From positions 1 to 64,000 of the forward strand of contig NZ_WESC01000015.1 of NCBI RefSeq assembly GCF_009184905.1: a DNA stretch of 64,000 nt, written 5' to 3'. The stretch is from Parvibaculum sedimenti (lineage in GTDB: Bacteria > Pseudomonadota > Alphaproteobacteria > Parvibaculales > Parvibaculaceae). Of this stretch, positions 4,297 to 39,864 are shown one piece after another. How positions within the stretch are numbered: position 1 is the first letter of the stretch; every line of letters starts with the position of its first letter. The notes below the pieces were generated by a model. That model saw nothing but the letters and a program-made list of their open reading frames with translations. It had not been told where the DNA came from and searched no databases. A program made the translations under genes and the position numbers.

Positions 4297-5043
4297 CTAT
4301 TCGATCTCGATCACGAGCGAGACGTCGGACGTGACCTTCTGCGTGCCCGCCGCAACGGGCACAGGCGCGCTGTCACGCATCGCCATCGCCTTCATCGCAT
4401 AGACGGGCTGGGGCGCGTATCCGCCGCTTTCCGAGATGGTCACGATCTTGCCAAGGGCGACGCCTGCCGCGCCCGCATAGATCTTTGCCTTGCGCAAGGC
4501 ATCCTTCACCGCCTCGGCGCGGGCCTCATCAAGGAGCGGTTCCGGCTTGTCGATGCCGAAGCTGATGCCGCCGAGCTGGTTCGAGCCGAGCGAGACGAGC
4601 TTGTCGAGCGTCGCGCCGAGTTCCGCGAGCTTCCTCACCGTGACTGTCACCTGATTGCGGACCTGATAGCCGCGAATGACCGGCGCCTCGATGGCGCCGT
4701 CAGGCCGCGTGGGCGGTTGGGCGTAGACGGGCGACACGGAAAATTCTGAAGTGCGGATATCGTCGCGCGCGATCTTCATCGCTTCGAGGCCCTTGAAGAC
4801 CTCGTTCATCGCCTTCGTATTGGCGGCCAGCGCGTCCGCCGCCGTCTTGCCTTCCGTCAGGACGCCTGTTTCGACCGTCGCGATGTCGGGATGGGTGGTG
4901 ATCTCGCCCGTTCCCGTAATCGTGAGTGTCCGGCGCGGCGCTTCCTCGGCGCGGGCTGGCCCGGCAGCACCCATGAGGGCGCCGAGGGCTATCGCGCCTG
5001 CCAGCGCGGCGGCGAAGCGGTTGAGCGGCATTCTGGCGGGCAT
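4297..5043 (-). CDS. SIMPL-domain (DUF541) secreted protein
   Basis: The 248-residue product begins with a Sec signal peptide (MPARMPLNRFAAALAGAIAL..., probable cleavage after ARAEE or just before). It then has a SIMPL/DUF541 domain: TLTITGTGEITTHPDIATV at the start, the RGYQVRNQVTV segment in the middle, and a C-terminal VTSDVSLVIEIE strand. Family members are periplasmic or outer-membrane proteins of poorly defined role (YggE, BP26), some linked to oxidative stress. The start at 5043 is preceded by GGGAGG; the frame runs upstream to 5094 without better signals. It ends 3 bases from the stop of panD, so the two genes converge. Confidence 0.8.
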   Translation of the reverse strand: MPARMPLNRFAAALAGAIALGALMGAAGPARAEEAPRRTLTITGTGEITTHPDIATVETGVLTEGKTAADALAANTKAMNEVFKGLEAMKIARDDIRTSEFSVSPVYAQPPTRPDGAIEAPVIRGYQVRNQVTVTVRKLAELGATLDKLVSLGSNQLGGISFGIDKPEPLLDEARAEAVKDALRKAKIYAGAAGVALGKIVTISESGGYAPQPVYAMKAMAMRDSAPVPVAAGTQKVTSDVSLVIEIE

Positions 5044-5170
5044 CGGGTCCTCCCGGTTGGTTGCAAAGGGAAGCTTCCCGGCGGAAACCGGCAAAATTGC
5101 GGCGTTCAGTCGGGCGGAAATATCTGCTATATGGTCCCACCCTCGGCCTTTGGGCCGAAGCGATATCTGG

Positions 5171-13536: not shown

Positions 13537-13665
13537 AGTCACTTTGAGCCTGTGAAATGAATCTGTAGCTCGCTGTGGCCCCAAGGTTTTCTAAGGATTT
13601 GTGAAACACATTGAACTTGTCCCCACATTTGTGGGGGACAAGTTCAAGCTGACTCAAAACAGGCT
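13537..13665. repeat. dispersed repeat copy C with a long terminal hairpin
   Basis: 13537-13626 matches the 100-bp repeat at 7991-8093. It is followed by a second end that matches copy A at 5271 exactly for 28 bases (13636-13663). The two ends meet tail to tail. TTGAACTTGTCCCCACA (13613-13629) pairs with its complement at 13632-13649 with a single bulged G, giving a 17-bp hairpin. No T-run follows, so it is not a typical terminator. The right edge reaches the stop codon of the TetR gene. Confidence 0.65.
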
Positions 13666-14291
13666 CAAGCGGCTGATTTCTCCGCGGAGTGAGGCTTGCC
13701 GAGCCCGGCGATGCCCTCGAAAAGCAGGTCTGTCGCCATGGCAGCGAGCTGATCGGGCGACACCGGGCCGTCGGGTCTGAACCATGTATGGGTGAAGTTG
13801 ATCGTGCCGAAGAAGAGCATGGTTGCCGGACGGAGCAATTTGCGCTGACGACGGAAGCGCGGCTGTATCTGGACGAAGAGCCTCTCGACCACGGCGACGA
13901 GTTTGCGCTGCTGAAGAACGATTTTCCTTCGCCGTGCTGCGGGCAGGTTCTTGAGTTCGTTGAGAAGTACCTTCTGATGCGCGGCCGCATCGACATAAAG
14001 CGTCATGAAGTCCGATATGAGCCGCCGGAGACGGGCTTCGGCAGGTGCCTTCATGATCTCGATCTGCTCGGCAACCTCCGACAGCTTGTCGAGATGCAGG
14101 CGCATGGCGTCGTATAGAATATCGTCCTTCGACTGATAATAGTGATAGAGAAGCGCTTTCGAGGTTCCGCAAGCCTTCGCAAGATCGGCGATCGAGGCAC
14201 CCGCGAAGCCGCGATCGGCAAAAAGGCGCGCGGCCCTGTCCACGATTTCTTTTCTGCGCTCGTCGTAATTCGCAGCCTGCGGCCGTGCCAT
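13665..14291 (-). CDS. TetR/AcrR family transcriptional regulator
   Basis: The 208-residue protein has an N-terminal TetR HTH (about 10-56: RRKEIVDRAARLFADRGFAGASIADLAKACGTSKALLYHYYQSKDDIL). A helical ligand-binding domain follows. It lies 156 bases from the divergent AraC gene, next to the aromatic degradation cluster, and is a plausible repressor of it. The gaacgANcGnTCAATTAAT elements before both alpha-subunit genes could be its operators (inferred). The TGA stop sits at the edge of the dispersed repeat, so the original C-terminus may have been altered by its insertion. Confidence 0.85.
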   Translation of the reverse strand: MARPQAANYDERRKEIVDRAARLFADRGFAGASIADLAKACGTSKALLYHYYQSKDDILYDAMRLHLDKLSEVAEQIEIMKAPAEARLRRLISDFMTLYVDAAAHQKVLLNELKNLPAARRRKIVLQQRKLVAVVERLFVQIQPRFRRQRKLLRPATMLFFGTINFTHTWFRPDGPVSPDQLAAMATDLLFEGIAGLGKPHSAEKSAA

Positions 14292-14447
14292 GACGTTTCG
14301 AAGCCTCCGGTCACCGCCCGTTTGCGGCTCGCTCTGTTAGTCATAATCGGATTGCGCCTTCGAGGGCAATCGCCGTTCGCTCCTTCGATGGGGGTTGACT
14401 CTTTCCCGATAACCGTTCGCAGTTGAGGCAGGAGAAGGGAGAGAGGG

Positions 14448-15389
14448 ATGGATATTGAGGAGCAGGTGCTGCTGACCGACGTCCATATGGACGGGGTCAA
14501 GTTTTCGATCGCACGGCTGCGCGCCCCTTTTTGCGTGAGCACAGCGCCGGGGCCGATCAGCTATTGCTATCTTCTGCGAAAGGGGAGGCTGTGGCTCGAA
14601 GTCGGCTCGGCGGAGCCGACCCTTATCGCTCTTGAAGCTGGCACGATCGTTGGCCTGACCGGGACCATTCCACACCGCTTCAGAAGCGGCCCGGGGCAGC
14701 TCCGCGTGAAAGAGGAGAGGCTCGTTACGCACGGCTTTGCCGAAGAGCACGAGGGCGACGCGCCCTTCGAGCTGATTGTCGGCGAGATTCCGCAGGAAGC
14801 GCTGGCCCTTTCCGGGCTTTTCCTGGGGGCGATGGTGCTCTCGCCCTCCAGGGCGGAAAAGGTGTGCCGCCGCATCTGGAAGGCGGCTGACCTTGTCGAG
14901 GAAGAGCTGCGGGACACGGAGACTATGGGGGGCAGCTCGCTCGTCATTCGTCGCCTGGCCGAGCTCATGCTGATTAATATTGCGCGATGGGTAATCTCCC
15001 AGGCGACGAGCGAGGAGGCGGGCGGCCTCCGCGCGCTCGCCGACATGCGGATATTACGCGCCATGGCGGCCTTCACTCGCGAGTCGCTGAAGAATTGGAC
15101 GGTGAAGGAATTGGCCGACATCGCCGGCATGTCGCGAACGGCCTTTTCCGAGCGCTTCCACGACTTGATAGGTCTTTCACCGCTTCAATGCGTTACCCGA
15201 ACGAGGTTGCGGACCGCGTCCGCAGCCCTGACGCGCGGTGGCCAGAGCCTTGAGGAGGTTGCGGCCATGGCGGGATACAGTTCAGCGGCCGCGTTTATCC
15301 GGGCATTTCGGCGTGAGTTCCAGACAACCCCTGCGCGGTGGCGGGCAAACCGCGGGCCCGAGCCTTTCGAGCAAGGATTGCGTGAATAA
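14448..15389 (+). CDS. AraC-family regulator with cupin_6 sensor domain
   Basis: The 313-residue protein has an N-terminal cupin-type effector domain (about 10-190; MDGVKFSIARLRAPFCVSTAPGP, HRFRSGPG) and a C-terminal pair of AraC HTH motifs (about 205-300: WTVKELADIAGMSRTAFSERFHDLIGLSPLQC and LEEVAAMAGYSSAAAFIRAFRREFQTTPARWR). A purine-rich GGAGAAGGGAGAGAGGG precedes the ATG. It ends 113 bases before the first dioxygenase gene, in the same direction. It is probably an activator of the catabolic genes, as cupin_6 AraC proteins often are for small-molecule catabolism. Confidence 0.88.
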   Translation: MDIEEQVLLTDVHMDGVKFSIARLRAPFCVSTAPGPISYCYLLRKGRLWLEVGSAEPTLIALEAGTIVGLTGTIPHRFRSGPGQLRVKEERLVTHGFAEEHEGDAPFELIVGEIPQEALALSGLFLGAMVLSPSRAEKVCRRIWKAADLVEEELRDTETMGGSSLVIRRLAELMLINIARWVISQATSEEAGGLRALADMRILRAMAAFTRESLKNWTVKELADIAGMSRTAFSERFHDLIGLSPLQCVTRTRLRTASAALTRGGQSLEEVAAMAGYSSAAAFIRAFRREFQTTPARWRANRGPEPFEQGLRE

Positions 15390-15395
15390 TTAACC

Positions 15396-15414
15396 GAACG
15401 AACGGTCAATTAAT
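15396..15414. promoter_or_regulatory. operator-like element before alpha subunit 1
   Basis: GAACGAACGGTCAATTAAT stands about 90 bases before the first alpha-subunit ATG, within an imperfect palindrome (CCG...CGG flanked by TTAA). Nearly the same sequence occurs before the second alpha gene (16847-16865). Shared sites in front of paralogous genes suggest one regulator, most likely the TetR or AraC protein next door. Confidence 0.5.
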
Positions 15415-15502
15415 ATGTACAATCGGGTAGGAAGAGTCTGGTTCTGATGAGTTAGCGTCTCCGACAAGAGAGAAAGCTAACGCTCAGGGAGGGGCTGGTC
15501 GA

Positions 15503-16807
15503 ATGTCTTCGATGTCGTGGAGGGAGGCATCCGATCTGTTTGACGAGAAGGCCGGTACGATCAACCCGGCGATCTATGCAGACCCGGCGATCTATGAGCT
15601 TGAACTCGAGCGCGTATTCAGCCGCTCCTGGCTCCTCATCGCCCATGAGACCCATATTCCGAAGGCCGGCGACTACCTCTCGACATATATGGGCGAAGAT
15701 CCGGTTGTTGCGGTGCGGCAGAAGGATGGCGGCGTCAAGGTCTTCCTCAACCAATGCCGCCATCGCGGCATGAAGATCTGCCGCACAGATGGTGGCAACG
15801 CCAAGTCCTTCACCTGCACCTATCACGGCTGGGCCTATGATATCGGCGGTAATCTGGTTCAGGTGCCGGTCGAACAACAATCGTTTGCCTGCCTCGACAA
15901 AAAGCAATGGGGTGCACGTCAGGCCCGCGTCGACAGCTACAAGGGGCTGATCTTCGCGACCTGGAACATGGATGCGCCGACGCTCGCCGACTACATGGGC
16001 GATGCGGCGCTTTATCTCGACGCTGTTCTTGATCGTTCTGAAGCGGGCACGGAAGCAATCGGCGGCATCACGAAGTGGGTCATTCCCTGTAACTGGAAAC
16101 TCGCCGCCGAACAGTTTGCGAGCGACATGTATCACGGTCTTTTCTCGCACGGTTCGATCTTCACGACGGCCGAGATTCCGACGTCGCCTCTGGGGCTCGG
16201 ACGTCAGTTCCGCGCCTCAGAGGGCGGTCACGGAACCGGATTTTTCGTGCGCTCCGTTCCGGAGTTGAGAATCACCAATGCCGGAGAGTGCGTGCCTGGC
16301 TATGACCCGGTTGCGGACGAACAGGCTGCGGTCGCCAGGCTGGGGACGCGCGCTCAGCTTTTCGTGCAGCACATGACCATCTTCCCGACATTCTCGTTCT
16401 TCGCCGGGTTCAACACGCTGCGGGTGTGGCATCCGCGTGGCCCTAATGAGATCGAGGTCTGGGCCTTCACCATTGTCGAGAAGGACGCGAGCGAGGCAGC
16501 CAAGGAGCAGTTGCGTCTGTCGAGCACCCGTTCCTTCAGCCCGGCGGGCACCTGGGAACAGGATGATGGAGAGAACTGGGTCGAAATTCAGCGCGTGCTG
16601 AGAGGCTATGAGGCTCGGAGAACGCCGTTCAATGCCCAGATGGGCATGGGGCAGGACTACGGGGTCGATCCGGACCTGCCGGGGAGGTTCAAACAAGCGC
16701 TCTCGGAAGGGGCTGCGCGAGGGTTCTACGCGCACTGGTTGAAGCTGATGACCGAGCCTGTCGGCGAGCATGCTGAGTGTGGCTCGGTCGCGCGAGCCGC
16801 GGAGTGA
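15503..16807 (+). CDS. aromatic-ring-hydroxylating dioxygenase alpha subunit (paralogue 1)
   Basis: The 434-residue oxygenase large subunit carries a Rieske 2Fe-2S site (C85-x-H87 ... C105-x2-H108). The mononuclear iron site has H211 and H216 in SDMYHGLFSH, D208 as electron-transfer bridge, and an acidic third ligand in the EQDDGENW segment. It would catalyse cis-dihydroxylation of an arene with O2 and electrons from the ferredoxin downstream. It closely resembles the second alpha subunit except around the active site: it has Ala206 where the paralogue has Cys (FAS versus FCS), LF instead of AT between the ligand His residues, and a shorter loop afterwards. GGGAGGGG lies 7 bases before the ATG. 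No beta subunit follows directly. Confidence 0.92.
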   Translation: MSSMSWREASDLFDEKAGTINPAIYADPAIYELELERVFSRSWLLIAHETHIPKAGDYLSTYMGEDPVVAVRQKDGGVKVFLNQCRHRGMKICRTDGGNAKSFTCTYHGWAYDIGGNLVQVPVEQQSFACLDKKQWGARQARVDSYKGLIFATWNMDAPTLADYMGDAALYLDAVLDRSEAGTEAIGGITKWVIPCNWKLAAEQFASDMYHGLFSHGSIFTTAEIPTSPLGLGRQFRASEGGHGTGFFVRSVPELRITNAGECVPGYDPVADEQAAVARLGTRAQLFVQHMTIFPTFSFFAGFNTLRVWHPRGPNEIEVWAFTIVEKDASEAAKEQLRLSSTRSFSPAGTWEQDDGENWVEIQRVLRGYEARRTPFNAQMGMGQDYGVDPDLPGRFKQALSEGAARGFYAHWLKLMTEPVGEHAECGSVARAAE

Positions 16808-16846
16808 CGAGCCGGCCTCGGGCTTTGACAATAAAAATCAATATCT

Positions 16847-16865
16847 GAACGATCGATCAATTAAT
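16847..16865. promoter_or_regulatory. operator-like element before alpha subunit 2
   Basis: GAACGATCGATCAATTAAT repeats the 15396-15414 element with two differences. The core TGAACGATCGATCA (from 16845) is palindromic at 12 of 14 positions. A TTGACA at 16825 stands just upstream, so a repressor bound here would cover a promoter region. It lies in the 134-base gap between the two alpha genes, suggesting a second promoter for the rest of the operon. Confidence 0.5.
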
Positions 16866-16941
16866 GCGAACGCCCTGATAGGAATGGCAGGTGTGGTGCG
16901 TGTTACGAAAATCGAACCATATCGTTCTCTGGGAGGAGACA

Positions 16942-18288
16942 ATGTCGGTGACCAAGAGGAATGACGCCGGTGCTGCGCCGTCCGTCAGCTTGACGGACCT
17001 GTTCGACGAAAAATCCGGGACGATCAGCCCGGCGATCTATGCCGATCCGCAACTCTATGAGCTTGAGCTTGAGCGTGTGTTCAGCCGCTCCTGGCTTTTT
17101 ATCGCTCACGAGACCCATATTCCGAAAGCCGGTGACTATCTGGCGACCTATATGGCCGAAGACCCCGTCATCGCGGTGCGGCAGAAGGACGGCGGCGTCA
17201 AGGTCTTCCTCAACCAATGCCGTCACCGCGGCATGAAGATCTGCCGTACAGATGGTGGCAACGCCAAGGCCTTTACCTGCACCTATCACGGCTGGGCCTA
17301 TGACATTGGCGGCAATCTGGTTCAGGTGCCGCTTGAGCAACAGTCCTTTGCCTGTCTCGACAAGAAGCAATGGGGCGCGCGTCAAGCCCGCGTCGACAGC
17401 TATAAGGGACTGATCTTCGCGACCTGGAACATGGATGCGCCGACGCTATCCGATTATCTGGGCGATGCGAAAAGCTACCTCGATCTGATCCTTGACCGTT
17501 CGGAAGGCGGGACCGAGGCGATCGGCGGCATCGTCAAATGGGTCATCCCCTGCAATTGGAAATTTGCGGCGGAGCAGTTCTGCAGCGACATGTATCACGG
17601 GGCCACCTCGCACATGTCCCCGATGATGGCGGCGTCTCCGGACACGCTACCCGGAGATCCGACCGACTTCTCGGGGCGTCAGTTCCGCGCGAGCCGCGGT
17701 GGGCACGGCACTGGGTTCTTTGTCGAAGGTGCGGAGTGGCTTTGGCGCGTCGGTCAGGCGGGAGAACACGTGTCCGGCTTCGACATCGCGGCGGCCGAGC
17801 AGCGTACCAATCTCCACCGCAGCGGTAAGCGGCCGGTCGGGTTCTCGCAGCATATGACCGTCTTCCCGAACTTCTCGATCTTCGCAGGCGCAAACACGGC
17901 GCGCGTCTGGCACCCGAGGGGCCCGGGTGAAATCGAGGTCTGGGCCTTTGGCCTCGTCGACAAGGCAGCAAGCGACGCGGAGAAGGAACAGATGCGCCTC
18001 ATGACGCTCCGAACCTTCAGCGCCGCGGGCACCTGGGAACAGGATGACGGCGAGAACTGGGTCGAGGTCCAGAGGGTGCTGCGCGGTCATGAAGCCCGGC
18101 GCACACTCTTCAACGCCCAGATGGGCGCCGGCGCTCCGCGCGGCGAAGACCCGACTTTTCCCGAAACGATCACCAACGCCTTTGCCGAAGAAGCTGCGCG
18201 TGGGTTCTACGCGCATTGGCAGAAACTGATGACGGATGTTGACGGGTCGTTTTCCAAGGCAGGGAGCTACGCAGATGCCGCAGAATAA
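16942..18288 (+). CDS. aromatic-ring-hydroxylating dioxygenase alpha subunit (paralogue 2)
   Basis: From the ATG at 16942 (GGGAGGAG just upstream) the protein has 448 residues. The Rieske ligands are C93, H95, C113 and H116. The catalytic iron ligands are H219 and H224 in CSDMYHGATSH, with D216. The FCSDMYH text is typical of biphenyl, ethylbenzene and related dioxygenases. An in-frame ATG-less extension to 16891 exists but has no start signals. It overlaps the beta-subunit gene by 14 bases, so this alpha subunit is translationally tied to beta and is the likelier main partner. The substrate cannot be read from the sequence. Confidence 0.93.
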   Translation: MSVTKRNDAGAAPSVSLTDLFDEKSGTISPAIYADPQLYELELERVFSRSWLFIAHETHIPKAGDYLATYMAEDPVIAVRQKDGGVKVFLNQCRHRGMKICRTDGGNAKAFTCTYHGWAYDIGGNLVQVPLEQQSFACLDKKQWGARQARVDSYKGLIFATWNMDAPTLSDYLGDAKSYLDLILDRSEGGTEAIGGIVKWVIPCNWKFAAEQFCSDMYHGATSHMSPMMAASPDTLPGDPTDFSGRQFRASRGGHGTGFFVEGAEWLWRVGQAGEHVSGFDIAAAEQRTNLHRSGKRPVGFSQHMTVFPNFSIFAGANTARVWHPRGPGEIEVWAFGLVDKAASDAEKEQMRLMTLRTFSAAGTWEQDDGENWVEVQRVLRGHEARRTLFNAQMGAGAPRGEDPTFPETITNAFAEEAARGFYAHWQKLMTDVDGSFSKAGSYADAAE

Positions 18289-18847
18289 TTCCCTTCAGAG
18301 CGCAACGACCGACATCGTCGAAATGGGCCGCACAATTACGCCGGCCCTTCAGCAGGAGATCGAGCAGTTCCTCTATCACGAGGCTGAATTGCTCGATGAC
18401 CGAAAGATCGCCGAATGGGTCGATCTTATGGCCGACGACATCCACTACTTTATGCCGCTGAGGACGACGCGCGGTCCGCGCGACCGTAATCTCGAACTGT
18501 CGGGCGCACACGACATCGCCTATTTCGACGAAAGCAAGGCTTCGTTGCAGCTGCGCCTGCGCAAGCTCCAGACCGGAACCGCATGGGCGGAGGAGCCGCC
18601 TTCGCGGACGCGTCACCTCGTCACGAATGTGCGCATCTCGACGACCGCCAAGGCCGACGAGTATGAGGTCAAGTCGGCGTTTCTTCTCTATCGGAACCGC
18701 TCAGAACGCCAGACCGATATTTTCGCGGGCGAAAGAACGGATGGATTGCGCCGGGTGGATATGCCTGCCGGCTTCAAGATATTCAAGCGCCTGATCCTGC
18801 TTGATCAGGCGACGCTCGAAGCGAACAACCTCAGCATTTTCTTCTGA
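18275..18847 (+). CDS. aromatic-ring-hydroxylating dioxygenase beta subunit
   Basis: The 190-residue small subunit belongs to the SnoaL-like cone-fold beta family. It shows IEQFLYHEAELLDDRKIAEWVDLMADDIHYFMPLRTTRG near the N-terminus, SRTRHLVTNVRI in the middle and the ending FKIFKRLILLDQATLEANNLSIFF. It has a structural role in the alpha3-beta3 oxygenase. The ATG at 18275 lies inside the end of the alpha gene with GGGAG 8-10 bases upstream. It is the only beta subunit in the cluster, so it may serve both alpha subunits. Confidence 0.92.
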   Translation: MPQNNSLQSATTDIVEMGRTITPALQQEIEQFLYHEAELLDDRKIAEWVDLMADDIHYFMPLRTTRGPRDRNLELSGAHDIAYFDESKASLQLRLRKLQTGTAWAEEPPSRTRHLVTNVRISTTAKADEYEVKSAFLLYRNRSERQTDIFAGERTDGLRRVDMPAGFKIFKRLILLDQATLEANNLSIFF

Positions 18848-18856
18848 GGCGCGGCG

Positions 18857-19179
18857 ATGGCATTTGTTCGCGTTTGTTCCGAAGACGAGGTTGCGCCCGG
18901 TGAGGCACTCCGCACCGAAAGCGCGGCAGGGCCGGTCGCGCTTTTCAATGTTGATGGCGAGTTCTTTGCGATCGAAGACACCTGCTCGCACGGTCAATGG
19001 TCGCTATCTGACGGTTATCTGACGGGCGATCAGATCGAATGTACGCTGCACATGGCAAAGTTCTGTGTACGCACTGGAAAAGCTTGCTCATTGCCTGCGA
19101 CGAAAGCGGTGAAGGTGTTTCCTGTACAACGTCAGGGGTGTGACGTGCTGATTGATTTTGAAGACGGACACTTCGCAGC

Positions 19180-19183
<4 letters not shown>
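18857..19183 (+). CDS. Rieske-type ferredoxin of the dioxygenase
   Basis: The 108-residue Rieske protein (ligands C43-x-H45 and C62-x2-H65) is of the BphF type and carries electrons from the reductase to the oxygenase. It begins 9 bases after the beta subunit. Its TGA overlaps the reductase start, so the electron-transfer pair is coupled. The length is normal for the family. Confidence 0.93.
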
Positions 19184-21239
<2,056 letters not shown>

Positions 21240-21291
21240 GCGAAGAAGTTATGGCCCGGCCAATCCGGGTCTGGAACGGGAGGGATGTGAC

Positions 21292-22176
21292 ATGGCCGAA
21301 CTGTCGAATTTGGGCTATGTGGTTTTCGGAGTCAGCGATCTCGCCGCGTGGGAAGATTTCGCCGTCAACATCGCCGGATTGCAGATCGGTCATAAAACCG
21401 ACGATGCGATGGCATTGCGGATGGACGAATATGAACATCGCATCGCGTTGGAGACGAACGCGGCAGACGATATTCTCGCGGCTGGCTGGGAACTCGATAC
21501 CGAGGACGAGCTCGACGAATATGTCGACGCCCTGAGAAAATCGGGTGTCGGCATCGCGGATGGCGGCGAGGAACTCGCCGCGCGCCGCTGCGTCGAGAGA
21601 ATCTATGTCTGCGATGACCCGATGGGCTTCAAGCACGAGTTCTTTTACGGTCCGCGCGTCGCTTCGCTCTCAAACCCCTTCCGCTCTCACATGTTGCGCG
21701 GCGCCGGTTTTGAAACCGGCCGGCTCGGCATGGGGCACATTCTGCCAGGAACGAACGACTACGCAGCCTCGGTGAATTTCTACAAAAGCATTCTTGGACT
21801 GAAGATCACCGATTACATTCGAGAGGAAGTGGCTCCCGGATTCGTCGTGGACGCGACCTTCTTTCATTCCGCTACCGGGCGTCATCATTCGCTCGCCACG
21901 GCCATGATCCCCGGCCCGAAGCGCCTCAATCACTTCATGATTCAGGTGAAGGATTTCGATGATGTCGGCCTTGCATATGATCGTGTTCTGAAGGCCGGAT
22001 TGCCGGTGGTGCTTTCGCTCGGCCATCACCCCAACGACAAGATGTTCTCGTTCTACGTACAGACGCCATCGGGCTTTGCCATGGAGTTCGGCCATGGCGG
22101 TATCGTCGTCGATGACGAGAACTGGAAAATCGTTTCGTATTCGCAGCTCAGCGACTGGGGGCACAAGCGCGCCTGA
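21292..22176 (+). CDS. type I extradiol (catechol 2,3-type) dioxygenase, BphC-like
   Basis: The 294-residue two-domain vicinal-oxygen-chelate enzyme cleaves a substituted catechol next to the hydroxyls. The Fe(II) ligands are H149 (GMGHILPG), H214 (LNHFMIQV) and E265 (FAMEFGHGG), with H199 as the probable catalytic base. The start is the ATG at 21292, with GGGAGGG 6-12 bases before it; the frame is open upstream inside the dehydrogenase gene but is antisense-like there. The size fits 2,3-dihydroxybiphenyl 1,2-dioxygenases and related enzymes. Confidence 0.94.
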   Translation: MAELSNLGYVVFGVSDLAAWEDFAVNIAGLQIGHKTDDAMALRMDEYEHRIALETNAADDILAAGWELDTEDELDEYVDALRKSGVGIADGGEELAARRCVERIYVCDDPMGFKHEFFYGPRVASLSNPFRSHMLRGAGFETGRLGMGHILPGTNDYAASVNFYKSILGLKITDYIREEVAPGFVVDATFFHSATGRHHSLATAMIPGPKRLNHFMIQVKDFDDVGLAYDRVLKAGLPVVLSLGHHPNDKMFSFYVQTPSGFAMEFGHGGIVVDDENWKIVSYSQLSDWGHKRA

Positions 22177-22282
22177 ATTCAGCGCAGAAAACGCTCCATT
22201 CGCCAGCCGCAGGATACGCAAGAGATAGATGAATGCCCGGGACGAACAATCCCGATCGGAAAAATCAAAGCAGGAGAGACGA

Positions 22283-23134
22283 ATGCCTGACACACATGTT
22301 CTGACTGAGGCCGAAACGAGCAAGTTCGTTGAGGCCAATGGCGTAAAGGTTCACTACAACGAGGCGGGAACGGGTGCGCCGCTGATCCTCATCCATGGTG
22401 GTGGCCCCGGCGCTGGCGGCTGGTCGAATTACAACCGCAACATGGGACCCCTGTCGAAGCACTTTCGCGTTATCTGTCCCGATCTTCCCGGCTTCGGGAA
22501 GTCGGACATGAAGCCGCTGGGCAGTCCCATGCCTGGCTGGTATGCCGAAACGATGGCAGCCTTTCTGCGCGCACTCGGACTGGAGAAGGCGCATTTCATC
22601 GGCAACTCACTCGGCGGCATGGTGACGCTCAAGCTCGCGCTCGAACATCCCGAGATGGTCGATCGCATGGTGCTTATGGGTACAGGCGGCAGCCTGCCGG
22701 TTTTCAGCACATTCCCGACCGAAGGCATCAAGACGCTGCTCTTCTTCTATGACGCTCCCGGGCCGTCGCTGGAGCGTCTCAAGGGCTTTATCGGACAGTT
22801 CGTCTACGATCCTTCCCAGATCACGGAAGAGTTGTTGAAGCAGCGCATGGAAGTCGCCCTCGACCCGCGCATTATCGCGAACCCGCCGATGCGTCCCAAT
22901 CCCAAGACGCCGCCGGAAGAACTCTGGCGTGACGCGCGGTTGACGAAGTTGCCGCATGAAACGCTCATGATCTGGGGGCGTGAGGATCGCGTGATGCCGA
23001 TCGACATGGCTTTCCCGCTTCTGAAGCAGATCCCGCGCGCGCGGCTCTTCGTCATGCCGCAATGCGGGCATTGGGCGCAGTGGGAGCATGCCGAAGAGTT
23101 CAACCGAACCGTCACGGGCTTCTTCAGCGCCTGA
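22283..23134 (+). CDS. meta-cleavage product hydrolase (alpha/beta fold, BphD/MhpC-like)
   Basis: The 283-residue C-C bond hydrolase splits the ring-cleavage product into 2-hydroxypenta-2,4-dienoate and an acid. The catalytic triad is S109 (GNSLGG), D235 (WGREDR) and H263 (CGHWAQWE). The oxyanion segment HGGGPGAGGWSNY lies at 38-50. GGAGAG precedes the ATG at 22283; the frame runs back to 22229 without a ribosome site. The identity of the acid product, and so the original substrate, is not visible. Confidence 0.93.
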   Translation: MPDTHVLTEAETSKFVEANGVKVHYNEAGTGAPLILIHGGGPGAGGWSNYNRNMGPLSKHFRVICPDLPGFGKSDMKPLGSPMPGWYAETMAAFLRALGLEKAHFIGNSLGGMVTLKLALEHPEMVDRMVLMGTGGSLPVFSTFPTEGIKTLLFFYDAPGPSLERLKGFIGQFVYDPSQITEELLKQRMEVALDPRIIANPPMRPNPKTPPEELWRDARLTKLPHETLMIWGREDRVMPIDMAFPLLKQIPRARLFVMPQCGHWAQWEHAEEFNRTVTGFFSA

Positions 23135-23157
23135 GATTGATCAGGGAGGGATCGGTC

Positions 23158-23958
23158 ATGGTTTCGAATACGACCGGCGTAGCGTCGTCACAAGTGATGG
23201 CGGACGCACTTTACGATGCGCGGCGGATTGGTAAGTCCATTCCGCCGCTGAGTGCGACGTATGGTCTCGCCGATCCTGTGGCGGCCTATGGGGTCCAGGA
23301 CATCAACACCGGGCGCTGGGTTGCGGAGGGCCGCCGGATCGTGGGACGGAAGATCGGCCTGACGTCGAAGGCAGTGCAGCAGCAGCTTGGCGTCAGCGAG
23401 CCCGACTACGGCATGCTCTGGGGAGATCTCGCCTACAAGGATGGCGATGAGATATCCGTGAAGCCTTTCCTGCAGCCTCGGATCGAGGCGGAGATCGCCT
23501 TCGTCATGGAGAGCGAAATCCGTTCGCCCGATGCAACGCTGACGGAACTCATGTCGGCCATCGGCTATGCGCTGGCCTCGGTCGAGATCGTCGACAGCGC
23601 CATCGCCGACTGGAAGATCACACTCGCCGACACGATTGCGGATAATGCGTCGGCCGGCGGCTTTGCCCTCGGCACCAATCCGCGCAAGATCTGCGATGTG
23701 GACCTGAAGCTCTGCGGGATGCTGATGTCGAGGAACGGGGTGCATGCCTCTCTCGGGGTCGGTGCTGCCTGCCTCGGCCATCCGCTCGTCGCGGCGCTCT
23801 GGCTCGCACGCAAGATGGCCGAGGTCGGGCGACCGCTTGAGGCGGGTGACATTGTGCTTTCCGGTGCGCTGGGGCCGATGGTCTCCGTGGCCGCCGGCGA
23901 CTACTTCACCGTCGAGATCCAGGGCTTCTCGCCTTTCGGCGTCAGCTTTGTCGCATAG
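23158..23958 (+). CDS. mhpD: 2-keto-4-pentenoate hydratase
   Basis: The 266-residue enzyme hydrates 2-hydroxypenta-2,4-dienoate to 4-hydroxy-2-oxovalerate. The family motifs are GRKIGLTS, PRIEAEIAFV (metal-binding acids), ASVEIVDSAIADW and the C-terminal GDIVLSGALGPMV. AGGGAGGG stands upstream of the ATG at 23158. It belongs to the MhpD/BphE/XylJ family; the symbol names the family, and orthology to the E. coli gene is not proven. Confidence 0.92.
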   Translation: MVSNTTGVASSQVMADALYDARRIGKSIPPLSATYGLADPVAAYGVQDINTGRWVAEGRRIVGRKIGLTSKAVQQQLGVSEPDYGMLWGDLAYKDGDEISVKPFLQPRIEAEIAFVMESEIRSPDATLTELMSAIGYALASVEIVDSAIADWKITLADTIADNASAGGFALGTNPRKICDVDLKLCGMLMSRNGVHASLGVGAACLGHPLVAALWLARKMAEVGRPLEAGDIVLSGALGPMVSVAAGDYFTVEIQGFSPFGVSFVA

Positions 23959-23983
23959 CTGAAATTTGTCATTGGAACGAGTC

Positions 23984-24928
23984 ATGTCTTCAAAGGTCAA
24001 GGTCGCGATCATCGGTTCCGGGAACATCGGGACGGACCTGATGATCAAGGTGATGCGGTTGTCGCAGGTGCTGGAGATGGGGGCCTTTGTGGGTATCGAC
24101 CCGGAGTCGGACGGGTTGAAGCGGGCGGCGCGGATGGGCGTGCCAGTGACGGCGGAGGGCGTCGAAGGTCTGGTGAAGATGCCGGGCTTCGACGAGATCG
24201 CGATCGTCTTCGACGCGACCTCGGCGGGTGCGCATGCGCATCACGACGCCGTGTTGCGCGCGCATGGCAAGCGCGTGATCGATCTGACGCCGGCGGCCAT
24301 CGGGCCCTATACCGTGCCGCCCGTCAATCTCGACGCGAACCTCGATGCGCCCAACGTCAACATGGTGACCTGCGGCGGGCAGGCGACAATCCCGATCGTG
24401 GCCGCGGTGAACCGCGTCGCACCGGTCCATTACGGCGAGATCGTAGCCTCCATCGCCTCGAAGTCGGCAGGCCCCGGCACGCGGGCCAATATCGACGAGT
24501 TCACCGAGACGACCTCGAAGGCGATCGAGGTCGTCGGCGGCGCGAAGCGCGGCAAGGCGATCATCGTGTTGAACCCGGCCGAACCGCCGCTGATCATGCG
24601 CGACACGGTCTATTGCCTCTGCGACGACGCGGTCGAGGCGGCCATCGAGGCCTCGGTCGAGGAGATGGTGCGCGAGGTGCAGTCCTATGTGCCGGGTTAC
24701 AGGCTGAAGCAGAAGGTGCAGTTCGAGCGCATCGGCCACAACAGCCGGCTCTATATCCCCGAAATGGGCGAGGCCTTTGCCGGCCTCAAGGTGACGGTGT
24801 TCCTTGAGGTCGAGGGCGCGGCCCACTACCTGCCGGCCTATGCCGGCAATCTCGACATCATGACCTCGGCGGCGTTGAAGACCGCCGAGCGCATGGTCGA
24901 GCGCGGGCTCAGGAGGGCCGCCGAATGA
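23984..24928 (+). CDS. mhpF: acylating acetaldehyde dehydrogenase
   Basis: The 314-residue enzyme makes acetyl-CoA from acetaldehyde, NAD+ and CoA. It has GSGNIGTDL at 11-19 (NAD-binding) and the catalytic C129 in [10 protein letters not shown]. Its stop overlaps the aldolase start (ATGA), matching the physical complex in which acetaldehyde is channelled between the two. Third codon positions here are richer in G and C than in the dioxygenase genes, which may mark a separate origin for this pair. Confidence 0.95.
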
Positions 24929-25965
24929 GCAAGCTCTACATCCAGGACGTGACGCTGCGCGACGGCATGCATGCGATCCGGCACCAGTACGACCTCGACC
25001 ATGTGCGGGCGATTGCCATCGCGCTCGACGAAGCGAAGGTCGACGCCATCGAAGTGGCGCATGGCGACGGCCTGTCGGGCTCGAGCTTCAATTATGGCTT
25101 CGGCGCCTATACCGACTGGGAGTGGATCGCGGCGGTCGCCGGTGTGGTCAAGCATGCCACGGTGACGACGCTGCTGCTTCCCGGCATCGGCACAGTGCAT
25201 GACCTCCGCCACGCCTATGACCTCGGAGTACGGTCTGTGCGTGTGGCAACGCATTGCACCGAGGCCGACATCTCGAAGCAGCATATCGAGGCGGCGCGGA
25301 ACCTCGGCATGGATGTCTCGGGCTTCCTGATGATGAGCCACATGAGCGCGCCGGAAGCCTTGGCGGGGCAGGCGAAGCTGATGGAGAGTTATGGCGCCCA
25401 TTGCGTCTATGTGACGGACTCGGGCGGAGCGCTGACCATGGACGGGGTCGCCGAGCGTCTTCAGGCCTATGACCGGGTGCTGAAGCCCGAGACCGAGCGC
25501 GGCATCCATGCGCATCACAATCTGAGCCTCGGCGTCGCGAACTCGATCGCTGCGGTGCAGAACGGCGCCATCCGCATCGACGCCTCCCTCGCGGGCATGG
25601 GCGCAGGCGCGGGCAATGCGCCGCTCGAAGTGTTCATCGCCGCCGCCGATGTCTATGGCTGGGAGCATGGCACCGACCTTTTCAGGCTGATGGATGCTGC
25701 CGAAGACCTTGTCCGCCCGTTGCAGGACCGGCCCGTCCGCGTTGACCGCGAGACGCTGAGCCTTGGCTATGCAGGCGTCTATTCGAGCTTCCTGCGCCAT
25801 GCCGAAAAGGCCGCCGGAACCCACGGCCTCGATGTGCGCCAGATCCTCCTCGAGCTCGGACGGCGGCGCATGGTCGGTGGCCAGGAAGACATGATCCTTG
25901 ATGTCGCACTAGATCTCAAAAAGAAGATGTTGGCGCCGGAGGCGGCCAGCGTCGACTTACCCTAG
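24925..25965 (+). CDS. mhpE: 4-hydroxy-2-oxovalerate aldolase
   Basis: The 346-residue class II aldolase splits 4-hydroxy-2-oxovalerate into pyruvate and acetaldehyde. It shows [14 protein letters not shown] near the start (R12, D13, H20), the metal-binding HAHHN segment near residue 194-198, and the DmpG communication domain at the C-terminus. It is the last gene of the degradation cluster and ends 4 bases from the stop of the convergent HD-GYP gene. Confidence 0.95.
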
Positions 25966-28945: not shown

Positions 28946-29256
28946 GCTGGATCAAGGCGTCAATCGCAAAGCTCGTCTCGTCGGACGCGCGATGATGCCC
29001 GGGAAACCGGAATTTCTGGGCATACGCGCCTTTGCAAAAGTAGTGCGGCGACTGACCGCGCGCGAGCGGTGACTATTGTAGCGCAGGGGCAAAGTATTCC
29101 GATGTGACATGGATGTTCGTTGCAAAAGCGGAATGCTTGACGTCGCAATATGAAACAATATCAGGCAAAGTTCGTTGACATTTTGGTGTGGACGACTGGT
29201 ACAGCGAAGCGAGCTGAACTAGGATTTCAGGCGGCCGTTCAAAAAGGATGTGCGCC
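28946..29256. other. divergent promoter region between the HD-GYP gene and tadD
   Basis: These 311 bases have no gene. A TTGACA at 29175-29180 points towards tadD but has only a weak -10 candidate (TACAGC, 19 bases on). The AT content is higher than around it, as expected of a shared regulatory region. No clear operator was seen. Confidence 0.35.
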
Positions 29257-30069
29257 ATGATGATACGCTCACGGAAAAATGGGAAGTTCAGAAAGGCGGC
29301 ATTTGCCTGCCTTTCGGCTGCGTTGTTGCTTGCCGGATGCGCCGATCTCGACATTCAGGGCAAGGGCGCGGCATTGGCGAAGAAGGACGCCCAGGCTGCC
29401 GTTGATCGGGGCGGCGCGCCGCTCAGGCTTGCCCGTGCGGCGAGAGACGTTGGTGACTTTGCATCTGCCACGGATCTCTACAAACGTGTTCTCGCCGCCA
29501 ATCCGGATGATTTCGCTGCCATGGCGGAGTTAGGTTCGACCCAGCTTGAGATGGGTGCCATTTACGATGCAATCGATACATTCAACAAGATTCCATCATC
29601 TTCGCCTTCGCAACTCGATGCACAGCTCGGCCAGGAGCGGGCGCAGCTGATGCTATCAAATCCCGTCAAGGCGCTTGAATATGCGGACAAGGCGATGGCA
29701 ATCGCGCCGAAGAATATTCGCGCGATGGTCGGACGGGGAGTAGCGCTCGACATGCTTGCGCGGCATGAGGAGGCGCAAGAGGCCTATCGCGCTGCGCTTG
29801 CCTTGACGCCCCACGACATGGGCGCCACCAGCAACCTTGCCCTGTCGCTCGCTATGACCGGGCAATATGATGATGCCATCCGCATTCTGACGCCTATTGC
29901 GCGGGCGCCCGAGGCCACGGCGCGCATCCGCCAGAACCTTGCGCTTATCTATGGCCTGAAAGGCGACGACGACGCGGCACGCGCGCTCAACCGCGTTGAT
30001 CTCGACGAACAGACGACCGAGAAAAACCTGCAATTTTATGCGGCCGCGCGGGAGCGTGTCGTTAAATAG
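29257..30069 (+). CDS. tadD: TPR lipoprotein of the Tad pilus (TadD-like)
   Basis: The protein of about 270 residues begins with a lipoprotein signal (lipobox LLLAGC, acylated Cys near residue 28). It then carries several tetratricopeptide units (for example FASATDLYKRVLAANPDDFAAMAELG and ALEYADKAMAIAPKNIRAMVGRGVALD). TadD-type proteins help outer-membrane assembly of the Tad secretion apparatus. I chose the ATG at 29257 because AAGGA ends 9 bases before it; ATGs at 29248 and 29260 are also in frame. Confidence 0.78.
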   Translation: MMIRSRKNGKFRKAAFACLSAALLLAGCADLDIQGKGAALAKKDAQAAVDRGGAPLRLARAARDVGDFASATDLYKRVLAANPDDFAAMAELGSTQLEMGAIYDAIDTFNKIPSSSPSQLDAQLGQERAQLMLSNPVKALEYADKAMAIAPKNIRAMVGRGVALDMLARHEEAQEAYRAALALTPHDMGATSNLALSLAMTGQYDDAIRILTPIARAPEATARIRQNLALIYGLKGDDDAARALNRVDLDEQTTEKNLQFYAAARERVVK

Positions 30070-30084
30070 CAGGGCAGGCTGCCG

Positions 30085-30462
30085 TCAGCTCGTTGGATAG
30101 CAGGATTTTGCCGCCAGGTTCACCGTATCCCCGACCCAGGGGATGATGAGCTGGAACGTAAGAGAGGCATAAACGCAAATGTCGCTCGTTCCCGTTGAAA
30201 CGGTGAATGCGCTACTATCTATATTCATGCCATAGGCTTGCGTAACGGCGTAATTCTTGATGCTTGTGGCGGAACCGCAAGTCGTGGTGTTAACTGCGGC
30301 GCAGCGTGCGGCGGCCTGCACGGCACGGTCGAGGGTGGTCTGCGTCCAGAGAAGACGCCCGACATCGACGATGCCTATCGTGAACAGCAATACGAGTGGA
30401 ACGACGAGTGCGAATTCAATCGCTGCGGCGCCGCTTGTCCCCAGGCATACCGGCCTTTTCAT
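30085..30462 (-). CDS. TadE-like minor pseudopilin 2
   Basis: The 125-residue protein has the TadE/TadF pattern: a short basic leader, then SGAAAIEFALVVPLVLLFTIGIVDVGRLLW (a Glu and an N-terminal membrane helix, as in prepilins processed by CpaA) and an extracellular part with Cys residues. It begins at an ATG that overlaps the TGA of the previous TadE-like gene (ATGA). It is transcribed opposite to the main Tad operon. Confidence 0.8.
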   Translation of the reverse strand: MKRPVCLGTSGAAAIEFALVVPLVLLFTIGIVDVGRLLWTQTTLDRAVQAAARCAAVNTTTCGSATSIKNYAVTQAYGMNIDSSAFTVSTGTSDICVYASLTFQLIIPWVGDTVNLAAKSCYPTS

Positions 30463-30890
30463 TGAATTCTCACGATGGCATGGGCCGTCAGCGTCGCCGG
30501 AATGGGAAGTCCCAGATAGGACAGTATCGTCGTGTGCGGGATAGTTGCGTCGACACGAACATATTGTCCGGGACTGCCGCCGCCGGTGCATGTAGCAGTG
30601 CAGAGGGTTGTCGTGACGCCGGTCGCCGTGGGGCACCCGCAAAAGGTTTGTGGTGAGGGCGTTGCCGTGATCCCGGTCTCGGCGGTTGCGCCTGTAATCG
30701 CGTTTGAAATACCGGTGGAGTCCCAGCCGTACTGGGTGGCGTAACTCGCCCCCGCTTCCACGGCCTCATGCACCATCATCGACTCGCGGATAGAAAAGCC
30801 GACCTCGACAAGTCCCGCCAAAAGGATCAGCAGGACGGGTGCGAGAAGGCCGAATTCAATTGCGGCCGTGCCTGCATCGTTTCTCCGCAT
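30459..30890 (-). CDS. TadE-like minor pseudopilin 1
   Basis: The 143-residue protein starts MRRNDAGTAAIEFGLLAPVLLILLAGLVEVGFSIRESMM, a TadE-type leader with processing after Gly, a Glu and a membrane helix. Its extracellular part holds several Cys residues (CGCPT, CTATC). AGGAG precedes the ATG by 10 bases. It is the first of a two-gene unit with TadE-like 2; minor pseudopilins probably prime Flp pilus assembly. Confidence 0.8.
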   Translation of the reverse strand: MRRNDAGTAAIEFGLLAPVLLILLAGLVEVGFSIRESMMVHEAVEAGASYATQYGWDSTGISNAITGATAETGITATPSPQTFCGCPTATGVTTTLCTATCTGGGSPGQYVRVDATIPHTTILSYLGLPIPATLTAHAIVRIQ

Positions 30891-31544
30891 GGTCGCATCG
30901 CTCCTAATCGACGAGTTTGGGTGAGCCGTTGATAATCGGCAGGACGCCCATATTCGCCGCGGATTCGGCGCCATGTTCCAGCGACGGCCTGCGACGATGT
31001 TCCAGATGCATCGCGTCGATCGCGACAGGACCGATTGGCCCTGAAAAGGCCAGAACGTAATGGATGGCGATGCAGTTGTGTTTATCCAGCATGAATCCGG
31101 GCATCGGCAATCTCACGAAGCGAAGCGGCATCTTCGAGTGCCTTCAGGTTTCGTATCACCGCTACGAACTTCAACGACGACAAAGACATCGGCATTGCGG
31201 TCATCCCATCCGGGTGAGGCACTGTAAAGAATGCGCCAGATTGAGGTTGTTTGATATGGCGGAATGTTTTCCGAAAGAAAATAAAAGAGATGTAGGCGGA
31301 CAAAACTGAAATTTCGCGAACCGGGTAAAATTCATAATTTAAGGCATGCTCATCAAAATGTGTCTCAATGTGGGCAATTCGAAATGCCAGTTTCCTGAAT
31401 TCTTTGTTGACCTGTCAGGACATTAGGCGCGTTGTAAAGAGGCTTAATGGGTGCGATTACGGAAACGGATGATCAGCACCTATTGATGAGACTGGAGAAA
31501 AAGGCCGGCACCTGCCCGGCGATAACATATGAGGATCGTGCGCG
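30891..31544. other. gap between the tadE pair and flp, with unrecognised short frames
   Basis: A minus-strand frame (30904-31131) ends 14 bases before the tadE ATG, with moderately coding-like third positions (LDKHNCIAIHYVL...GSPKLVD). A second minus frame (31082-31303) overlaps it in another phase. They could be the pieces of one decayed gene or chance. I recognise no family and see no clear ribosome site. The part from about 31300 to 31544 is AT-richer and must hold the flp promoter; TTGACC at 31408 is a possible -35 box. Confidence 0.35.
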
Positions 31545-31742
31545 ATGTCCATTCTCAGAGACACTTCGAAGAAGATAGCGACGGCTCTTTCCATCAAGTC
31601 GGAGAGTGGCGTTACCGCGGTCGAGTATGGCTTGATCGCATCGCTGGTGGCGCTGGCAATTATCGTTGGTGCGGGTTTGCTCGGCACCAATCTCAACTCG
31701 CTGTTCAACTACATCGCCGGTAAAGTTTCGACGCCGACATAA
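31545..31742 (+). CDS. flp: Flp/Fap type IVb major pilin
   Basis: The 65-residue prepilin has a leader of 22 residues ending in Gly and the processing site G22-V23 followed by TAVEYGLIASLVALAIIVGAG. E27 and Y28 are the conserved Flp pair. Mature pilin would be about 43 residues. It forms the surface fibre assembled by the Cpa/Tad machinery downstream. It precedes cpaA by 100 bases. Confidence 0.93.
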   Translation: MSILRDTSKKIATALSIKSESGVTAVEYGLIASLVALAIIVGAGLLGTNLNSLFNYIAGKVSTPT

Positions 31743-31842
31743 GCGCTGGCGCAACCAGCTTGGGTTGAGGAGCGCTTTCGTCTCAATGTGAAGCCTGGGC
31801 GGAGTTGCTCCCCGTCACCTATGGCGCCGAAGCGAGGCAGTC

Positions 31843-32376
31843 GTGACCACGTCGGCGATAGCGCTCTGGGGCGTTGCATTTTCAGCGGTGCTTGCGGGCG
31901 TGGCGCGGGACCTGCAGGACAGGATAATCCCAAACGCTTTGGTGTTGATCGTGTGCGCGGCAGGCGTCGCGATGCAGTGCGTCGGCGAGGGCTGGAACGT
32001 TTGGCATAGCCTGTCCGTTACGACGGCGGTCTATCTCTGCGCGGCGGCGCTTGCCTATTGGGGCTTTATGGGCGGTGGCGATGCGAAGTTGATCGTTGCA
32101 TCCACCCTGCTGGTGCCGCCGGGCCAGGTTGTGGCGCTGCTGCTGAGCATCGCCTTGGCAGGTGGTCTGCTCAGCTGCTTTTACCTGGCTGCGCAGCTTG
32201 TGTTGAAGCGGAGACGGCTTGCGACCCCGGTGAAGGACGCAGGCGTGAGGAGGGGAGGACGCATTTCCAATCTTATACGGACAGAAGCCGAGAGGATCTT
32301 GGCAGGTGAGCCAATGCCATATGCCATCGCCATTCTCGGCGGGTTGGCCTTTCACTTCTTCGTCGAGGTTATCTGA
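31843..32376 (+). CDS. cpaA: prepilin peptidase CpaA/TadV
   Basis: The 177-residue membrane aspartyl peptidase cleaves the Flp leader. The catalytic Asp residues are D23 (DLQDRIIPN) and D80 (GGGDAKL). It has about four to five membrane helices. The start is GTG at 31843. It overlaps cpaB (TGATG at 32374-32378). Confidence 0.9.
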   Translation: MTTSAIALWGVAFSAVLAGVARDLQDRIIPNALVLIVCAAGVAMQCVGEGWNVWHSLSVTTAVYLCAAALAYWGFMGGGDAKLIVASTLLVPPGQVVALLLSIALAGGLLSCFYLAAQLVLKRRRLATPVKDAGVRRGGRISNLIRTEAERILAGEPMPYAIAILGGLAFHFFVEVI

Positions 32377-34711: not shown

Positions 34712-34715
34712 ACAG

Positions 34716-35126
34716 ATGACGCAAAGCAGACGTAAGTTTCGAGTCGTCTCCATGGCCGCGGCGTCAATCGTCCTTTCGGCAATGATGGTTCCGCACGGGC
34801 CGGCAGCGGCAGAGGTGGCTTCGGACCCCTGCAGCGGGCGATTGACAACTGACATAGTCAGTGATCACGCCAACGCACCAACATTCGGCGGAGGCTGTGT
34901 AAACAAAAACAACATCGAGAATATGGTTCAGCAGAAGAGCGACCTGATGCAAGGACGCCCGCTCGGGCCCGCGAATGCAGAGCGCGAGGCTCAGGCAGTC
35001 AGGCGCTATGAGGAGGGTAAGGTCAAGACGGAGTCCGACTACAAGGGAACCTCGCCAGTCTCGATTTTCGGCGCACCTGCCTCGTCGGGCGGACAGTCCG
35101 GCTCTTCCTCGTCGGGAGACCAGTAA
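34716..35126 (+). CDS. cpaD: short CpaD-like pilus assembly protein
   Basis: The 136-residue protein has a signal peptide (to about PAAAEVA) and the CpaD C-terminal pattern FGGGCVNKNNIENMVQQKSDLMQGRPLGPANAEREAQAVRRYEEGK. CpaD proteins are usually around 200 residues or more, so the N-terminal half is reduced or absent. No lipobox Cys is evident at the signal cleavage site. Position between cpaC and cpaE supports the call. The stop TAA overlaps the next ATG. Confidence 0.75.
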   Translation: MTQSRRKFRVVSMAAASIVLSAMMVPHGPAAAEVASDPCSGRLTTDIVSDHANAPTFGGGCVNKNNIENMVQQKSDLMQGRPLGPANAEREAQAVRRYEEGKVKTESDYKGTSPVSIFGAPASSGGQSGSSSSGDQ

Positions 35127-38696: not shown

Positions 38697-38722
38697 CTGC
38701 GGGATGTAAGGAACAGGATGCT

Positions 38723-39664: not shown

Positions 39665-39864
39665 ACGATTGGCCGGAGTAGAGGCGGCAGCTTCAAGCAA
39701 GCGCAGTGGTGTGCCTTTTGTAGCTCGGCTTGCCTGTTGCGTAGGCAAAAATGCGATGAACTGAAATTTTCCAGTCGGCTGCGGATAAAACGGCGATTGA
39801 AAGATTGCCAAAGCCGCGACGACCGCCTATCTCCGGCCAACCTGGACAAGGATAGAGCGGTCAA

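Follow-up and report, generated by a model that had tools for sequence, protein, structure and literature searches.

Tandem alpha subunit genes of a Rieske dioxygenase in Parvibaculum sedimenti, with homogenised Rieske halves, diverged catalytic halves and a single beta subunit

Toluene 2,3-dioxygenase (3EN1) and the biphenyl dioxygenase of RHA1 (1ULI) are three-component Rieske ring-hydroxylating systems with an alpha3beta3 oxygenase, and the cumene dioxygenase system has a single alpha gene. A tandem duplication of carAa has been described for carbazole degraders (a literature search for it found nothing). We describe here a toluene/biphenyl-type locus with two alpha genes, located in a 64,000-nucleotide stretch of Parvibaculum sedimenti (RefSeq assembly GCF_009184905.1, contig NZ_WESC01000015.1, positions 1 to 64,000), which is called the window hereafter. 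In Sphingobium yanoikuyae B1, at least six oxygenase gene sets are believed to use one common electron-donor system (PMC1847435). Whole oxygenase sets share the donor in that strain, whereas two tandem alphas share even the beta subunit in the window. Several oxygenases on one electron chain are known (PMC1847435), but half-gene conversion of tandem alphas was not met among the titles and starts of abstracts listed from openly licensed papers. Neither did this listing, which covers only part of the literature, show tandem alphas with one beta or gene conversion in Rieske oxygenases, which is weak evidence of absence. Passages of two papers had no bearing on these questions: PMC8552027 describes one bphA with bphE, and PMC5006600 concerns gene conversion only as a laboratory tool.

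The two alpha genes lie in tandem, 134 bases apart, in a genome of 3.70 Mb (3,701,047 bases), and a single beta, ferredoxin and reductase gene follows. Both proteins resemble the toluene and biphenyl enzymes, with 53-58% identity, the same fold and all ligands, and the same operon order is also found in relatives such as loci L011 and L016. The differences are the two alphas per one beta, one residue fewer between the His ligands, and short, divergent loops. Likeness to the cumene dioxygenase of strain IP01 (1WQL) concerns active-site loops 1 and 2 and the ferredoxin-docking residues. The nearest alphas met outside the genus (62-63% identity) belong to operons in three genomes of the G428 family (loci L074, L075 and L076), with the same gene order; these differ from the window in having one alpha and no exact copy of the 19-bp element described below. 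Their alphas show the short spacing of the His ligands, and the residue two positions ahead of their bridging Asp is Ala.

Mosaic structure of the two alpha genes

The features on which the comparison rests are the following:

15503..16807, plus strand: alpha subunit 1 (short loop 1, LF motif); intact open reading frame, Pfam and solved-structure matches
15539..15994, plus strand: homogenised tract in the Rieske half of alpha 1 (four-way alignment, codon columns 21-172)
16136..16204, plus strand: loop 1 of alpha 1, residues 212-234, counterpart of cumene dioxygenase loop 1
16244..16285, plus strand: loop 2 of alpha 1, residues 248-261, mapped through cumene dioxygenase
16942..18288, plus strand: alpha subunit 2; intact open reading frame, Pfam and solved-structure matches
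17002..17457, plus strand: Rieske half of alpha 2, homogenised tract (four-way alignment)

The preliminary description of this DNA had proposed a duplicated alpha gene, and two intact genes are indeed present. For the second gene, ATG 16942 is the most likely start, and not GTG 16891, in view of the preceding sequence and of the relative in locus L007, which aligns from there. The two proteins are 74% identical over their aligned part. Their near-identity in the Rieske half (145 of 157 residues) is as first described, but its extension to much of the rest was overstated, since only 108 of 174 residues are the same in the catalytic remainder. Both sequences score above the gathering threshold for the Pfam families Rieske and Ring_hydroxyl_A. 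Toluene and biphenyl dioxygenase are their closest solved sequences and also the best fold matches of their AlphaFold models. These single-chain models are of moderate confidence (mean predicted local distance difference test scores of 76.7 and 74.1), and their weak stretches cover, among others, some of loop 1 in alpha 1 and some of the region of loop 2 in alpha 2. The profile of the HcaE 3-phenylpropionate dioxygenase (NF042946) gives 509 and 476 bits, under its curated cut-off of 830. Each protein is thus a predicted alpha subunit of a toluene/biphenyl-type Rieske ring-hydroxylating dioxygenase.

The Rieske ligands (CxH...CxxH) are invariant: C85, H87, C105 and H108 in alpha 1, and C93, H95, C113 and H116 in alpha 2. 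The bridging Asp and the 2-His-1-Asp iron site are D208, H211, H216 and D354/D355 in alpha 1, and D216, H219, H224 and D368/D369 in alpha 2. None of these residues varies in the 28 rows of the alignment, and their ligand roles are predicted from alignment. The spacing of the His ligands is four residues in both copies, as compared with five in toluene, biphenyl and cumene dioxygenase. The shorter spacing is also found in L037, L038, L039, L041, L074-L076 and L079-L081; it varies among relatives, and is not taken as defining for the toluene/biphenyl type.

The same tandem is carried by a second genome of the genus, Parvibaculum sp. MAG (metagenome-assembled genome) isolate E19 (genome G006, locus L007). 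The window alphas are named W1 and W2 below, and those of L007 X1 and X2. At codon column 176, about 35 codons ahead of the bridging-Asp motif, a breakpoint separates a stretch with a DNA mismatch density of 12.6% between W1 and W2 from one with 36.4%, a contrast beyond chance (permutation p <= 5e-4). On the two sides, the four genes tell different histories. For the Rieske half (456 sites), the DNA quartet test prefers ((W1,W2),(X1,X2)), and the approximately unbiased (AU) test gives p-AU 1.9e-8 for the orthologue topology and 8.5e-4 for the third one. For the catalytic half (669 sites), it prefers ((W1,X1),(W2,X2)), with p-AU 2e-7 for the paralogue topology. Outgroups confirm the latter pairing (W1+X1 with support 100/97, W2+X2 with 100/99), W1+W2 and X1+X2 being rejected at 8.5e-6 and 1.9e-7, and it is repeated by DNA and protein with nearer outgroups. 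The catalytic halves thus pair strongly, copy with copy across the genomes, as old orthologues. In Rieske-half trees with outgroups, X1+X2 has support 97/89 with 31 rows and 95/81 with 25 rows by DNA, and W1+W2 reaches 94/92 by DNA, and also 95/92, in the 25-row set with nearer outgroups.

Silent sites tell the same for the window pair. The proportion of synonymous differences (pS) in the Rieske half is 0.46 [0.35-0.57] between W1 and W2, versus 0.67-0.77 for the other five pairs. Third codon positions mismatch at 46 of 152 places between W1 and W2, at 74 of 152 between W1 and X1 (p 0.0015) and at 83 of 152 between W2 and X2 (p 3e-5). Only one of the 157 positions of the Rieske half holds an amino acid that is diagnostic of the copy in both genomes. 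Such a closeness of paralogues at silent sites indicates gene conversion or an equivalent intragenic recombination, since selection at the protein level alone would not produce it. On this evidence from trees and silent sites, the Rieske halves are homogenised by intragenic gene conversion that ends just before the catalytic motif.

In the catalytic half, the divergence between the copies peaks in the loops, which were located by mapping through cumene dioxygenase (1WQL): 9 of 27 residues are identical in loop 1 and 5 of 16 in loop 2, i.e. 31-33%. In cumene dioxygenase, the active site is capped by these two loops, variants of which alter activity and selectivity (PMC7889853). The loop following the His ligands is shorter in copy 1, as had been noticed: loop 1 counts 23 residues in alpha 1 and 27 in alpha 2, versus 29 in cumene dioxygenase. 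Copy 1 keeps its loops between the two genomes (17 of 23 residues in loop 1, 12 of 14 in loop 2), and copy 2 keeps them less (13 of 28 and 6 of 17). Likewise, the non-synonymous divergence (dN) of the catalytic half between genomes is nearly twofold higher for copy 2 (0.261 vs 0.142). Two short sequence marks of the copies had also been put forward. The Ala/Cys difference two residues before the bridging Asp exists in the window, but it is not specific of the copy and was rejected as a mark of specificity, since copy 1 of L007 has Cys and single-alpha relatives show either state. The pair between the iron-ligand His residues does differ (LF versus AT); LF is kept in copy 1 of L007, and the counterpart of AT is TM in its copy 2. 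A different substrate range of the two alphas is plausible, because their divergence peaks in the very loops that set selectivity in cumene dioxygenase.

A comparable tandem in another family, and distribution

A tandem of similar design occurs in another alphaproteobacterial family, G1027 (loci L079 6369-9451, L080 7196-10377 and L089 1480-4105). As in the window, there are two alphas and one beta after the second, the Rieske half is homogenised and the catalytic half follows the copy, so that the tandem alpha-alpha-beta arrangement is not unique to the window. These enzymes belong, however, to a distant Rieske family: their alphas are 28-30% identical to those of the window and have Rhodococcus naphthalene dioxygenase as best solved match. 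In L079 and L080, the tandem adjoins a single-alpha operon, and its two alphas, about 77% identical, are followed by one beta (Pfam). The Rieske half of this replicate quartet (504 sites) groups by genome, with a log-likelihood 86.6 better than either alternative (p-AU below 1e-50), and the catalytic half (648 sites) groups by copy, the alternatives having p-AU 0.024. The informative sites switch sides around columns 180-280. When eight alphas from five of the six G1027-family genomes are analysed, copy 1 forms one clade in the catalytic half (100/99); in the Rieske half such a clade is rejected (p-AU 1.6e-6) and the grouping is by genus. All six genomes match copy 2, and three have both copies. 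The other three hold copy 1 with a cut start of copy 2, a fragment of copy 2, and copy 2 only, respectively.

Pairs of the window's own kind were sought more widely. Within the family (E <= 1e-120), 3 of 40 genomes match, and two of these three, the window's own and G006, have two adjacent alphas. The phylum and class searches, in which at most four candidates per genome were scored, found matches in 2 of 398 and 4 of 385 genomes, with two alphas only in the window's own. At E <= 1e-100, again with at most four candidates scored per genome, 30 of 398 genomes match; four of these have two matches, which are never neighbours but lie on different contigs or some 0.5 Mb from each other. Among 38 loci compared, only L007 has two alphas of this kind without a beta between them. 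Plasmid records gave 934 matches, all below 60% identity.

Electron path, upstream elements and cassette

The genes that accompany the alphas, and the two upstream elements, are the following:

13665..14291, minus strand: TetR-family regulator (Pfam TetR_N and TetR_C_24); orthologue at the same position in L007, 81% identical; conserved cassette member
14448..15389, plus strand: AraC-family regulator with a Cupin_6 domain (Pfam); L007 orthologue 65% identical
15396..15414, plus strand: 19-bp element, 88 bases upstream of the ATG of alpha 1
16847..16865, plus strand: 19-bp element, 76 bases upstream of the ATG of alpha 2, within the gap between the alphas
18275..18847, plus strand: single oxygenase beta subunit (ATG 18275; searched from 18278, without the initial Met)
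18857..19183, plus strand: Rieske ferredoxin (family searches); 85% identical in L007
19180..20406, plus strand: ferredoxin reductase (family searches); 59% identical in L007
20409..21239, plus strand: BphB/TodD-type cis-dihydrodiol dehydrogenase (TIGR03325 440 bits, under the curated cut-off of 460); 87% identical in L007
21292..22176, plus strand: BphC-type extradiol dioxygenase (longest open reading frame 20839-22176, probable start)
22229..23134, plus strand: BphD/HsaD-type hydrolase of the ring-cleavage product (scores under curated cut-offs)
23062..23958, plus strand: 2-keto-4-pentenoate hydratase-like gene (probable start near 23158; score under curated cut-off)
23966..24928, plus strand: acetaldehyde dehydrogenase-like gene (name read from the sequence alone); 88% identical in L073
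24925..25965, plus strand: 4-hydroxy-2-oxovalerate aldolase-like gene (name read from the sequence alone); 90% identical in L073

One beta, one ferredoxin and one reductase gene follow the alphas, as had been described. This gene order, conserved in the second genome, bears out the proposal that two catalytic subunits are served by a single electron chain and a single beta. Ferredoxin docking in cumene dioxygenase depends critically on alpha Lys117 and beta Arg65 (PMC9361823). A Lys is found at the equivalent place in both alphas, and the equivalent of Arg65 in the single beta is Arg68 as searched, or 69 counting Met. The docking Lys and the Rieske ligands both lie inside the homogenised half. 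One electron supply can thus probably drive two different active sites. Between the two cassettes, the reductase (19180-20406 vs L007 8236-9459) is much less conserved than the ferredoxin and the dehydrogenase.

After the reductase come the BphB/TodD-type dehydrogenase, the BphC-type extradiol dioxygenase, the BphD/HsaD-type hydrolase, the hydratase-like gene and two further lower-pathway genes; the divergent TetR gene and the AraC gene stand upstream of the alphas. In the second genome, L007 and the neighbouring L072 and L073 show that the whole cassette is conserved, from the TetR gene to the aldolase-like gene. That the flanks of the cassette differ holds only in part: of ten window genes tested from the flanks, nine are without a match in L072 and L073, and for the remaining one (4297-5094) the second genome holds a relative at 61%, located 4 kb upstream of its TetR gene. 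The cassette (13665-25965) is thus shared by two genomes of the genus with mostly different near neighbours, and it may be mobile or separately acquired.

In L007, the 19-bp motif again precedes each alpha at a conserved distance (86 bases for alpha 1, 76 bases for alpha 2). Allowing up to three mismatches, it has two matches in the 3,701,047 bases of the source genome, each preceding an alpha (reversed control, 1). Exact copies were found in 11 of 81 loci searched, all of them overlapping pieces of the two Parvibaculum genomes. The element probably arrived with the duplicated unit, and its position suggests a separate control of each alpha through its own putative element. A TetR-type palindromic operator was considered and dropped in favour of the conserved 19-bp core: against a chance expectation of 1.09 matches, the first pattern found only one of the two sites in the window, and the site of alpha 1 is not a clean palindrome. 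Autoregulation of the TetR gene through this core is not supported either, since the best match between the TetR and AraC genes has eight mismatches. The scanned stretch of the window has two terminator-like sites, each of which lies on the minus strand (shuffles 1.6), and that of L007 has four, all within alpha 1 (shuffles 2.4).

Elsewhere in the window, 48103-49185 and 49208-51889 look like a methionine synthase split over two adjacent reading frames, and the region around 29200-39700 resembles a tight-adherence (Tad) pilus locus; both are readings of the list of open reading frames only.

Competing explanations and biological meaning

We consider it likely that the alphas are duplicates whose Rieske halves were converted, and that they provide two specialised active sites on one beta and one electron chain; the parallel in the G1027 family raised our confidence in this. 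A tandem duplication of a unit made of the element and an alpha would have preceded the separation of the two Parvibaculum cassettes. Since then, the catalytic halves would have formed separate lineages with different active-site loops. The Rieske halves, which would take electrons from one ferredoxin and sit against one beta, would have been homogenised within the genome by a conversion that stops short of the catalytic motif. Each alpha would assemble with the shared beta and be reduced by the shared ferredoxin and reductase, and two oxygenases with different pockets would supply a single dihydrodiol dehydrogenase and meta-cleavage pathway. Through its own upstream element, each alpha could be switched on by a regulator. 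The observed basis of this scheme consists of the gene order, the intact metal ligands, the conflicting trees of the two halves (here and in the G1027-family operon), the low silent divergence of the Rieske halves in this genome, the divergence centred on the loops and the conserved upstream elements. Assembly with the same beta, sharing of electrons, difference in substrates, promoter function and the identity of the regulator that binds are the parts of this scheme that we infer.

Several observations weigh against this scheme. In the 31-row tree of the Rieske half, support for W1+W2 is only 70/66. When outgroups are included, rejection of the orthologue clades in this half is marginal with 31 rows (0.037 and 0.049), and they are not rejected in the 25-row set (0.12 and 0.15 for DNA, 0.13 and 0.08 for protein). 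The X1+X2 pair is absent from the protein tree of the Rieske half, and its third-position mismatches (68 of 152) are no different from the orthologue values. The sites that would tell the donor direction of the conversion are evenly split (37 vs 37). In the replicate, P1+P2 is not a clade in the Rieske half (p 0.13), and within one genus the Rieske halves of two genomes follow the copy (Q1+Q2 and S1+S2 are rejected), which implies that the conversion predates the split of those two genomes and was episodic rather than continuous. The window's kind of pair is found in only two genomes, and no sigma-70-like promoter appears in either of the scanned stretches near the elements (shuffles 0.8 and 1.6). 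Last, the split is not perfectly clean, since columns 361-380 of the catalytic half show six sites of the conversion pattern and three of the orthologue pattern.

This last stretch is conserved and may have been converted too, as would be expected if the Rieske halves recombine merely through their likeness and the catalytic halves have become too diverged to do so. Conversion would then have no function, and the active sites might still differ. Such a neutral process falls a little short of an even call in our judgement: the tract ends where identity drops, and many family-invariant columns fall in the Rieske half. A shared constraint is suggested instead by the fact that the split recurs in an unrelated family and breaks at a similar place there, but a shared pattern of conservation could produce this as well. 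It is improbable that the catalytic halves came from different donors, by a domain replacement in one copy rather than by divergence after one duplication. The four catalytic halves are indeed only weakly grouped against L074-L076 (87/80 with DNA, 65/34 with protein), and joining either copy to these enzymes is not rejected. However, the best trees hold the four together, and both copies have the His spacing shortened by one residue, a trait found in other relatives too. Still less probable is an operon working with one alpha only, the other being a decaying or minor spare. The faster change of copy 2 in its catalytic half and loops would fit such a decay, but both reading frames are intact in both genomes, no ligand of the Rieske cluster or the iron, nor the bridging Asp, varies in either alpha, and synonymous change exceeds non-synonymous change in both copies.

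The two alphas could also form mixed trimers on the shared beta, i.e. hybrid oxygenases with active sites of both types, tuned through the separate elements, which we regard as unlikely yet conceivable. In alpha3beta3 oxygenases, the iron of an alpha receives its electron from the Rieske cluster of the neighbouring alpha (PMC1847435), so that, with conversion restricted to the Rieske half, every alpha would remain able to donate electrons to either active site. If so, half-gene conversion would be a recurrent means of keeping tandem alphas compatible, as the G1027-family operon suggests.

With conversion and specialised active sites as the favoured explanation, the locus would be a natural experiment in which the electron-receiving and substrate-binding halves of the alpha subunit have been uncoupled in evolution within one operon, in two unrelated families. 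In practical terms, it offers two differently looped active sites that apparently run on one electron chain. It makes testable both the existence of mixed alpha trimers and the view of the Rieske half as a swappable module, constrained by the ferredoxin and the beta subunit.

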